The notes beneath the pieces are model-generated. The model had not been told where the DNA came from, searched no databases, and saw only the letters and a list, made by a program, of their open reading frames with translations. From SAR116 cluster bacterium (GTDB lineage: Bacteria; Pseudomonadota; Alphaproteobacteria; Puniceispirillales; Puniceispirillaceae), in assembly GCA_004212735.1 (NCBI GenBank), contig SHBD01000008.1, forward strand, positions 1 through 64,000: DNA of 64,000 nucleotides, given 5' to 3'. This document shows, piece after piece, positions 16,192 through 19,708 of the stretch. The position numbers and the translations under genes were made by a program. Every line of letters begins with the position of its first letter. The first letter of the stretch is position 1.

Positions 16192-16599
16192 GCTGTCAGA
16201 TGGCTGGATGACCGCTGCCACCAACGGAGAAATCCGGTGGGAGAGGAAAGTCCGGGCTCCACAGGATCAGGATGCCGGGTAACGCCCGGCGGGGGTGACC
16301 CCAGGGAAAGTGCCGCAGAAAACAAACCGCCCATACGCCCCACGGGACGTATGCTGGTAAGGGTGAAAAGGTGCGGTAAGAGCGCACCGCCAGGCTGGTA
16401 ACAGGCTGGGCATGGTAAACCCCATCCGGAGCAAGACCATGTAGGGACACATGCCGCGTGCGGCTGGTGCGATCCTGCACTGATGTCCGGGTAGGTCGCT
16501 TGAGGCGGCTGGCAACAGCCCGCACTAGATGAATGGTCATCACCCTCTGCGTCATGCAGGCGGGACACAGAACCCGGCTTACAGGCCATCTGACAGCTT
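16192..16599 (+). ncRNA. rnpB: RNase P RNA (M1, type A)
   Basis: The ends pair: GCTGTCAGATGGC at 16192-16204 with GCCATCTGACAGC at 16585-16597 (helix P1). Inside are hallmarks of bacterial RNase P RNA: GGGAGAGGAAAGTCCGGGC near 16237, AGGGTGAAAAGGTGCGGTAAGAGCGCACC near 16358-16390, and ACAGAACCCGGCTTACAGGCC at the 3' end. It is the catalytic RNA that trims tRNA 5' leaders. No protein gene is needed in this stretch, and reading frames through it are shadows. No clear T-run terminator follows. Confidence 0.97.
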
Positions 16600-16710: not shown

Positions 16711-17460
16711 TCATTTTGGCTTGGTCTGCCTAGAGATGATAGGCTCTTTCGCCGTACTGACCAATGGCCACATCTGCCCCATAGCAAGGGCCGCTGCCTG
16801 ATCACCGAGTTCATTCAGCGCCGCATCAAGCTGACGACGTGCTGTTTCCAATATCTGCCGGTCGGCGGCGCGTCCGTCACCGCGCCCAACATGCAGCGGC
16901 GCACCCATCACAAAGCGGCCGGACGAAAAAGGCTTCGGCACAAACATCTGGTCCCAGCCTGACGCGCGCCAGTGGCGTCTGGTTGCCCAGCAAAACGGCA
17001 CGATCGGCTTGCCGGTAATCTGTGCCAGCGCTACCGGCCCCACCGCCACACAGCGCGCCGGACCCCGCGGCCCATCAGGCGTCAACGCGACAGATTTGCC
17101 ATCCTGCAGGACCCGCATCAGACCCCGCAACCCGGCCCGGGGCTGGCGATTTGAAGAGCCCCACACCGTGCGCAAACCAAAACAGCCAATTACATGCGCC
17201 ATCATTCGACCATCGGCATGTGGAGATTGCAGCGCATAGAGCGGAAACTGTCGTGGCCAAAGCCACGGCATGGCCAAGGTCCGTTCATGCCAAAACACCA
17301 TGATCACACCTTCCTGTTCAGCAAGGAAAGCAGCGATGTGGGACTGGTCCTTGCGTGACCAGCGTATGGTCAGCATCAATCCAGCAATCAGGCTTGCCAG
17401 CAGCAGGCCGACAAACCGACAACCAAGCGATGATCTAATCAATGCTTTATGTAGCTTCAT
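16711..17460 (-). CDS. DUF374 lysophospholipid acyltransferase family protein
   Basis: 249 aa from the ATG of MKLHKALIRSS; the frame is open to 17538. One N-terminal hydrophobic segment (VGLLLASLIAGLMLTI) anchors it. The acyltransferase core includes VFWHERTLAMPWLW (His with Arg), SPHADGRMM, SSNRQPRAGLRGLM and LTPDGPRGPA, all typical of DUF374. Family members are thought to acylate lysophospholipids or lipid A-type substrates; the substrate here is unknown. It is the second acyltransferase of the window after plsC. A small ORF on the same strand lies directly upstream. Confidence 0.85.
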   Translation of the reverse strand: MKLHKALIRSSLGCRFVGLLLASLIAGLMLTIRWSRKDQSHIAAFLAEQEGVIMVFWHERTLAMPWLWPRQFPLYALQSPHADGRMMAHVIGCFGLRTVWGSSNRQPRAGLRGLMRVLQDGKSVALTPDGPRGPARCVAVGPVALAQITGKPIVPFCWATRRHWRASGWDQMFVPKPFSSGRFVMGAPLHVGRGDGRAADRQILETARRQLDAALNELGDQAAALAMGQMWPLVSTAKEPIISRQTKPK

Positions 17461-17538
17461 CCAATTTGCCTTTTCCGCCGGGCCTCTCCCACATTTTCCG
17501 GTTGCATGGTCGCATCCACGCTCACTCCAGATCATCAA

Positions 17539-17730
17539 TTAGCCCAGCGGGTAAGATTTGCCGTCAATGCACAGGCTGGTGGTAAAGGCCGACAACGACG
17601 CAAACTCACCGGAACGTGATAAAAGTTGCCAGAAATTCACCTTTTGCGGTTGTGGTGTCACACCACCCCGCCAGCGCCATGTGCGGGTTGAATAATGGTC
17701 CGGAACTGATCTGCCCTCCTCTTTCAGCAA
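17539..17730 (-). CDS. Possible small protein upstream of the DUF374 gene
   Basis: 63 aa from a TTG start with AGAGGAGG inside its first codons, so the start is unclear. The product is Trp/Arg-rich at first (STRTWRWRGGVTPQPQKV) with no recognisable domain. It ends 78 bp before the chosen DUF374 start. The composition is plausible for coding but it may be spurious. Confidence 0.3.
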   Translation of the reverse strand: MLKEEGRSVPDHYSTRTWRWRGGVTPQPQKVNFWQLLSRSGEFASLSAFTTSLCIDGKSYPLG

Positions 17731-18239
17731 GAAAAGACGACACAGAGATCAGGCTTTGCCATCGCCTGGCAAAACGACAAGCCAGAAACCAGCGAGCATC
17801 TGTTCATCGGCTGATGTAATGAGCGAAAATCCAAAGTTGTAACAGGCAGAAACCTGTCTTGCTGACCCTTTAGCTGGCAAATATATCTCTCAAAATAGTA
17901 CAAAAACAGAACATCATTGATTTTCAATATGTTATATAATGATGTTGAATAATGAAATTAAACTATTGAAACCATTGGCTTTTCCCATGAGAAAACAGTG
18001 TTAACCCATTGACCTCCACAAATTCCCATGATATCCCATAATATCCCATTTTAAGTTTGGGGTCCTGCGTTCGGCCGCAGGCAGCGTTGATGTCAACAGC
18101 TGCAAGATGGCTAGAAAGCAGGCCCAGAGCCAAAAACGGGAAAGAGGAAACACCGGTGAAGGGGACACACAGGCCGTAGAGGCAGTTCACCCCACCGCTG
18201 GAGCAGGCCCGAGAGGGCGGAAAATTTGGGGACAGGCAC
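17730..18239. other. dcw upstream control region, no protein gene
   Basis: About 500 bp without a supported gene. The part up to about 17980 is A/T-rich and contains a TATAAT hexamer at 17935-17940. It is followed by five in-phase CCCAT boxes at 17984-18049 and a G/C-rich, purine-rich leader up to the mraZ start. A TTGACC at 18009-18014 within the boxes is a candidate -35 element. Confidence 0.6.
17984..18049 (+). promoter_or_regulatory. MraZ operator: five phased CCCAT boxes
   Basis: CCCAT occurs at 17984, 18005, 18025, 18035 and 18045, always in the same orientation. The last three are spaced exactly 10 bp (5-nt gaps); the other steps are 21 and 20 bp, close to two helical turns. On the other strand each reads ATGGG. 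MraZ of enterobacteria binds TGGGN direct repeats with 5-nt spacers upstream of its own gene, so these are the expected operator of the mraZ gene 190 bp downstream. The TTGACC -35-like hexamer overlaps them, suggesting repression. Confidence 0.8.
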
Positions 18240-18716
18240 GTGGATTTATTTCTATCCACATTTGAAAACCGCATTGACAAAAAGGGGCGCCTTTCGGTGC
18301 CGGCGCCTTTCCGATCAGTGCTGGAGCGTCGTCGTGATCCGCTCTATCTTTTCAAATCCCTGACCGAGCCATGCCTTGAGGGCTGCGGGCCGGAACGGAT
18401 CGGTCAAATTGTCGACGCCATTGACAGTATGGACAGTCTCTCGGCTGAGGTGGCAACCCTACAGACAATGCTGTCCAGCGCCCAGGAAATGAAGCTGGAT
18501 AGCGAGGGCCGCATCATGCTGTCGGCTGATTTCATCAGCTTTGCCGAGCTACAGGATGTGGCACTCTATGCTGGCATCGGCCGGTCGTTCCAGATTTGGC
18601 TGCCTGACCGGTACCGCACGCGCGAGGCAGATGCGCGCAGCCGTGCCAAGACAAGCGGCCTTCCAAGCCTGCGACTTGGCGCGCACCGGCGCGAGCCTGA
18701 CAGCGGAGCCCAGTGA
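18240..18716 (+). CDS. mraZ: MraZ, transcriptional regulator of the dcw cluster
   Basis: 158 aa from a GTG. Two SpoVT/AbrB-like half domains: FLSTFENRIDKKGRLSVPAPFR (residues 4-25) and AQEMKLDSEGRIMLSADF (about 80-98), both with the DxxGR signature that forms the DNA-contacting swapped hairpin. MraZ oligomerises into a ring and binds repeated boxes before its operon. The phased CCCAT array upstream supports autoregulation. The stop overlaps the rsmH start by one base (TGATG). First gene of the dcw cluster. Confidence 0.95.
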   Translation: MDLFLSTFENRIDKKGRLSVPAPFRSVLERRRDPLYLFKSLTEPCLEGCGPERIGQIVDAIDSMDSLSAEVATLQTMLSSAQEMKLDSEGRIMLSADFISFAELQDVALYAGIGRSFQIWLPDRYRTREADARSRAKTSGLPSLRLGAHRREPDSGAQ

Positions 18717-19708
18717 TGCCAGAACAGCAGCTTCACCATCAGGCGCTCCACCAATCGGTTCTGTTGCGCGAGGTGGTGGCAGCGCTGACCCCAGCGGATA
18801 ATGCCATCTATCTTGATGCCACCTTTGGAAATGGTGGCTACAGTCGGGCGCTATTCGAAGCAGCTGACTGTAAGGTGATCGCCATTGACCGCGATCCCGA
18901 TGCGATCCGGCGTGGCCAGCCCATGCTTGCCGAATTCGCAGGTCGCTTTTCGCTTGTCGAGGGTTGTTTTTCGGAAATGATCAGCCTGCTTGACCCTGAA
19001 ACTGAACTGGATGGCGCGGCCTTTGACCTCGGTGTCTGCTCGACTCAGTTAGACCAACCCGAGCGAGGTTTTTCTTTTCGCACTGATGGGCCGCTAGACA
19101 TGCGGATGTCAAAAAGCGGTGACAGCGCGGCAGATGTTGTGATGCAGGCAGATGAGCGAATGCTGGCGCAGATTCTGTGGGATTATGGTGAGGAAAAGGC
19201 GTCACGGCGCATTGCCAAGGCGATTGTTAGCGCCCGCAGGGAATATCCCATCACCTCCACCAGCCAATTGGCAGCGATCATCCACGCGGTTATGCCAGCC
19301 AAACGGCCTGGGCAAATCGACCCGGCGACACGCAGCTTTCAGGCATTGCGCATCTATATCAACCGCGAGCTTGACGAGTTGACGGAAGGCCTTGTCGCCG
19401 TCGAGGCAATGCTAAAGCCGGGCGGCATTTTGGCTGTGGTGTCCTTTCACTCACTTGAGGACAGGATTGTTAAACGCTTCCTCACAGCGCGCAGTCAGGC
19501 CGCGGCGAGGCCATCACGCCACATGCCCGACATCGATGGGCCTGCCCCCACTTTTGAATTGTTGAGCCGCAAAGCGGTTGTACCAAGCGCCAGCGAACAG
19601 GCAGAAAACACACGTGCGCGGTCAGCAAAGCTGCGTGTCGCCCGTCGCACCGCTGCGCCTACCATCGCGGCCAATCATGACGCCCCCCATCAAGCAGGGA
19701 GGGGCTAG
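18716..19708 (+). CDS. rsmH: 16S rRNA m4C1402 N4-methyltransferase
   Basis: 330 aa from ATG 18716 (a GTG lies one codon upstream). Family landmarks are HQSVLLREVV, the SAM site LDATFGNGGYSRALF near residue 36, VIAIDRDPDA, FDLGVCSTQLDQPERGFSF near residue 100, and TRSFQALRIYINRELDEL. It methylates N4 of C1402 in 16S rRNA. It overlaps mraZ by one base and precedes ftsL by 3 bp, the usual dcw order. Confidence 0.95.
   Translation: MPEQQLHHQALHQSVLLREVVAALTPADNAIYLDATFGNGGYSRALFEAADCKVIAIDRDPDAIRRGQPMLAEFAGRFSLVEGCFSEMISLLDPETELDGAAFDLGVCSTQLDQPERGFSFRTDGPLDMRMSKSGDSAADVVMQADERMLAQILWDYGEEKASRRIAKAIVSARREYPITSTSQLAAIIHAVMPAKRPGQIDPATRSFQALRIYINRELDELTEGLVAVEAMLKPGGILAVVSFHSLEDRIVKRFLTARSQAAARPSRHMPDIDGPAPTFELLSRKAVVPSASEQAENTRARSAKLRVARRTAAPTIAANHDAPHQAGRG

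Follow-up and report, generated by a model that had tools for sequence, protein, structure and literature searches.

A predicted MraZ operator interleaved with the dcw promoter of a SAR116 alphaproteobacterium

Upstream of mraZ in a SAR116 (Puniceispirillum-like) alphaproteobacterium, the pentamer CCCAT recurs in a single orientation at helical spacing. The locus raises the question of whether this segment is an operator for MraZ, encoded by the first gene of the dcw cluster, or whether the repeats belong to the promoter or to a different regulator. The comparisons reported here strongly support an MraZ operator at the dcw promoter: the array is conserved before mraZ and hardly ever precedes rsmH in genomes that lack mraZ. 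The segment 17984-18049 is very probably the operator-promoter of the dcw cluster, predicted from its sequence, at which MraZ would act as an autorepressor that occludes RNA polymerase. Coordinates refer to the window, that is, the whole 64,000-nt stretch of DNA analyzed.

Boxes, promoter and genes

An initial annotation had placed CCCAT boxes on the + strand at 17984, 18005, 18025, 18035 and 18045, with steps of 21, 20, 10 and 10 bp, and had claimed an exact 5-nt gap between the last three. All five boxes are present, and those at 18025, 18035 and 18045 lie at exact 10-bp steps. A TTGACC element resembling a -35, which had been described amid the boxes, was also borne out, and its first T is shared with the box at 18005. 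A degenerate box at 18015 was overlooked; it fills the 20-bp gap between 18005 and 18025, and since nCCA is kept there in nearly all of the family, the reported 20-bp step hides a degenerate slot. The array comprises five consecutive 10-bp slots (18005, 18015, 18025, 18035, and 18045) and one distal box, 21 bp 5′ of the box at 18005. The features are as follows, with slots numbered from the box at 18025.

17984..17988, + strand: distal MraZ box CCCAT, at offset -41 from the box at 18025
18005..18009, + strand: box slot -20, CCCAT, overlapping the -35; CCCA in 72% and nCCA in 93% of the family
18009..18014, + strand: predicted -35, TTGACC; 93% of the family have TTGAC separated from TATCCC by 17 bp
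18015..18019, + strand: box slot -10, degenerate TCCAC; nCCA in 97% of the family, 94% of the order and 82% of the class
18025..18029, + strand: box slot 0, CCCAT; CCCA in 97% of the family and 85% of the class
18029..18037, + strand: predicted extended -10, TGaTATCCC; TG and TAT near-invariant, the base between them variable in the order and class
18035..18039, + strand: box slot +10, CCCAT, its CCC shared with the -10; CCCA in 100% of the family and 91% of the class
18045..18049, + strand: box slot +20, CCCAT, at the predicted start (~18044); kept in 93% of the family and 53% of the class
18045..18239, + strand: predicted 5′ leader of ~195 nt; fold z about -3.7 to -4.6 against shuffles
18240..18716, + strand: mraZ, GTG start, presumed repressor of the operator; Pfam MraZ, 8.6e-17
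18713..19708, + strand: rsmH (mraW), the second dcw gene; Pfam Methyltransf_5, 8.6e-98

The segment 17984-18049 holds at least three direct repeats with a TGGG core (CCCA on the other strand) at steps of about 10 bp. Taken singly, CCCAT is no more frequent in the window than expected (141 occurrences vs. 197 expected), and the signal therefore lies in clustering and phase. The pattern CCCATN5CCCATN5CCCAT occurs once in the 2.49 Mb SAR116 genome, and the control gave 0 matches. Of 20,000 first-order Markov copies of the intergenic region 17540-18239, 0 had three boxes spaced exactly 10 bp apart and 215 had five or more boxes on one strand at any spacing. A search of the whole genome for triples with one mismatch returned 16, two of them overlapping the mraZ array, vs. 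12 with the control, revealing no further targets that would point to a wider regulon.

The promoter elements share bases with the boxes. Near-invariant TG and TAT around a variable middle base in CCCATGnTATCCCA are as expected of an extended -10; thus, the T and G of the box spacer serve the promoter, and the -10 hexamer ends in the CCC of the next box. The spacer between TTGAC and TATCCC is 17 or 18 bp in 97% of the order's other families. Unlike the E. coli consensus, TATCCC has no T at -7, a base often missing from alphaproteobacterial promoters. The position of this -10 suggests a transcription start near 18044. A promoter scan preferred CATAAT (18037-18042) as the -10, but that hexamer is less conserved and has a poor match or none for a -35. 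Members of SAR116 share an A-T-rich block (about TTAAnTnATTGAAAAnATTnnnTTTT) just 5′ of the distal box, at 17950-17983, possibly an UP element or a site for another regulator.

The encoded protein has the characteristics of MraZ. It matches PF02381 (8.6e-17) in two stretches, the DxxGR motif is intact in both halves, and residues D13, G16, R17 and D87, G90, R91 are invariant in the alignment. The first motif aligns with R15 of E. coli MraZ, a residue needed for DNA binding. The predicted model (pLDDT 77) has the MraZ fold, superposing on 1n0e with Z 15.9 and an rmsd of 2.8 over 135 residues; the M. pneumoniae and M. genitalium MraZ proteins score about 15.8, and the next unrelated row has a Z of 5.0. 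The array adjoins mraZ (18240) at the head of the dcw cluster, a location conserved in relatives. The ORFs 3′ of rsmH have the sizes of ftsL, ftsI, murE, murF, mraY, murD, ftsW, murG, and murC, which by position we take them to be, in the usual dcw order. On the other side lie a DUF374 gene (16711-17538, - strand) and the RNase P RNA (RF00010, 310.7 bits) at 16196-16597, 1.6 kb upstream of mraZ. RNase P RNA likewise adjoins mraZ in Pelagibacter (PMC2704228).

We rejected the leader RNA as a conserved element in its own right, as the family mean fold z is only -0.73 despite the strong local fold. Leader length ranges from 30 to 273 nt among relatives, and neither length nor fold is conserved. 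The Rhodobacter UpsM leader is similarly long (268 nt vs. ~195 nt predicted here) and contains a terminator that yields an sRNA (PMC5089854), whereas no intrinsic terminator was found on the + strand between 17540 and 18300 in SAR116.

Conservation of the array in relatives

Box number and phase before mraZ in related genomes had been proposed as a check on the initial annotation, and array and phase proved to be kept across SAR116 and Alphaproteobacteria. The family alignment comprised 40 sequences with upstream DNA, anchored on CCCATGNTATCCCA, and 31 sequences represented other families of the order. The family consensus (n = 40) reads TTTTcCCat...(21 bp)...CCCATTGAC..CCAt.A.tTCCCATGATATCCCATAa.AtCCCA. 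The same layout is found in essentially all informative family genomes (n = 40), and the other families of the order share its core (n = 31). Registers flanking the box slots are empty in the family, apart from 5% at -21.

Across the class the array is reduced, usually to three or four boxes, and the consensus elements are TTGAC, nCCAn, CCCATGnTATCCCA and CCCA. At least three exact CCCA at 10-bp steps precede mraZ in 65 of 90 alphaproteobacterial genomes with an MraZ match, while the TGGG counterpart does so in 1 of 90; five of the 90 sequences have no box pair (one of these is cut by a contig end). The extended site CCCATGNTATCCCA occurs in 95 of 192 genomes, at 100 sites vs. about 5 for a control pattern. 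For at least 86 of these sites, a listed MraZ match is found on the same strand within the next 1 kb downstream. Of seven others that were inspected, two (in G097 and G102) are also located before mraZ, and no MraZ-like frame was found near those in G005:C83, G170, G074, G100:C7 and G020.

The initial annotation had read the extra upstream boxes as suggesting a larger ring footprint than that of the usual three or four boxes. The distal box is real and phased, and it recurs at -41; the contiguous part of the array, with about five slots of which one is degenerate, is the alphaproteobacterial norm and not specific to this genome. CCCA stands exactly at -41 in 22 of the 39 family sequences with enough upstream DNA. 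In the class it does so in 10 of 89 sequences, while offsets further upstream average 0.34 each (P ~5e-12, uncorrected for the number of offsets); one of the ten is a SAR116 genome and two come from one genus, leaving about eight outside lineages. This recurrence indicates that the distal box is a real optional element on the same helix face. In two genomes (G163 and G063; loci L101 and L108), the distal box lies 1 bp further out, at -42, and another CCCA lies further upstream, which suggests an even longer array in their genus.

Genomes without mraZ and competing explanations

Over the alphaproteobacterial genomes, presence of the array follows presence of mraZ. The site CCCATGNTATCCCA was found in 1 of 28 genomes lacking an MraZ HMM match vs. 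94 of 164 with one (Fisher 3e-8, genomes counted as independent), and in that lone genome, G020, it does not precede any recognizable dcw gene. Regions upstream of rsmH were read in 24 of the 28 genomes; 22 remained after exclusion of G040 and G014, which have divergent MraZ-like frames. An array of three precedes rsmH in 1 of these 22 mraZ-less genomes vs. 65 of 90 (Fisher 4e-9, genomes again counted as independent). The sole exception, G117, reads CCCATTGACGCCCAGCTATTCCCATGTTATTTT, in which TTGAC and TGTTATTTT are kept and the boxes over and after the -10 are lost. Since this genome keeps the promoter core and loses the boxes, promoter and operator are separable, and mraZ-less genomes can serve as natural deletions for telling one from the other.

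Two side observations concern these genomes. G117 (L240) is a reduced genome of 0.8 Mb with no mraZ detected, in which the array, a decaying relic, lies ~230 bp upstream of rsmH with its promoter core intact. The MraZ-like frames upstream of rsmH that the Pfam search had missed (L251 and L236, in G014 and G040) contain DDKGRVAIP and DRKGRVSVP.

Could the repeats simply be a conserved promoter, read by RNA polymerase and general activators with no role for MraZ? Few positions are as conserved as TTGAC and TGnTAT, and box sequence is partly shared with them. However, 10-bp phase is also kept by CCCA at +20, nCCA at -10 and the distal box, none of which is a promoter element; the near absence of boxes before rsmH in genomes without mraZ, the survival of the promoter without boxes in G117, and a repeat core identical to the TGGG repeat of E. 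coli also argue against this explanation, which we regard as highly improbable. Even harder to credit is an operator for another dcw regulator, such as NtrX or CenR. Both bind upstream of mraZ in Rhodobacter sphaeroides (PMC7240162; PMC9275681), but the predicted NtrX site, GCAn9TGC, is unlike the CCCAT repeats (PMC7240162), and presence of the array tracks that of mraZ.

Alternatively, MraZ may bind here as an activator or an architectural wrapper, for example with the distal box looped to the core array round one ring. The distal box lies exactly at -41, about four helical turns away, in many lineages, and slot -30 is mostly empty. Furthermore, the four-box complex of entry 9sz7, as far as its title describes it, implies that one assembly can take several boxes. 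On the other hand, the boxes overlap the -35, the -10 and the start region, so that bound protein should exclude RNA polymerase, and many relatives have a degenerate distal box or none. We consider an activating or architectural role unlikely.

The reading that we favor is autorepression. RNA polymerase would recognize TTGACC (18009) together with the extended -10 TGaTATCCC (18029-18037) and begin transcription near 18044. The first gene would supply MraZ, which would contact the CCCAT repeats (TGGG in the complementary strand) once per helical turn, weakly at 18015, with a probable sixth contact at the distal box at 17984. Bound MraZ would then cover the -35, the spacer, the -10 and the start site, shutting the polymerase out and thereby repressing the operon that encodes it. 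The six boxes could be occupied by one larger ring or by two assemblies, or they could offer sliding registers. The title of the M. genitalium complex (9sz7) indicates that MraZ can engage four boxes, and the arrays described here are ready test substrates for how MraZ rings read four to six.

Comparison with known MraZ operators

At the E. coli promoter Pmra (NC_000913, L058), as in SAR116, direct repeats with a TGGG core and a 10-bp step precede mraZ at the head of the dcw cluster. The E. coli operator lies downstream of the -10 and has three boxes, whose TGGG is on the coding strand at -43, -33 and -23 relative to the start codon; the E. coli leader is 38 nt long, and the boxes lie around its start site (PMC5089854). 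In contrast, the SAR116 array has six boxes (one degenerate) with CCCA on the coding strand, reaches from the -35 to the start site, and shares bases with the promoter, so that it does not conform to the E. coli type. Among non-alphaproteobacterial sequences drawn from the phylum, all four with at least three exact boxes are of the TGGG type, several of them right after a -10-like sequence. Two-box cases in the same draw are mixed, some being CCCA and several of these far upstream.

E. coli and the sampled non-alphaproteobacteria mostly have TGGG downstream of the -10. Against that pattern, the operator of Alphaproteobacteria runs in the opposite orientation and has moved upstream, where it spans the -35 and -10. 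The initial annotation had overlooked this polarity. We found no paper stating the inversion or upstream shift in Alphaproteobacteria within our partial coverage of the literature, and an earlier description is possible. A broader proposal, which we offer tentatively and with some doubt, is that Alphaproteobacteria have a distinct MraZ operator, inverted relative to that of E. coli, fused with an extended -10 and often provided with a distal box, with the whole dcw promoter wrapped by a single ring or by two that cooperate. With the class-wide consensus and its inverted polarity, the dcw switch of Alphaproteobacteria can be predicted from sequence.

Repeats at 10-bp steps are also known from the dcw operator of Burkholderia cenocepacia, where a fragment with four repeats (7 nt plus a 3-nt spacer) was bound by MraZ in EMSA (PMC7761207). 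These repeats, which a GTG motif had served to find, are located downstream of the -10, as in E. coli, and unlike those of SAR116 they are not interleaved with the -35 and -10 (PMC7761207). The Mollicutes share the MraZ fold and direct repeats before mraZ. Their repeats are AAAGTG[T/G], with four boxes in the promoter bound by M. genitalium MraZ in a cryo-EM structure, according to the title of 9sz7, whereas SAR116 has CCCAT in five slots and one distal box.
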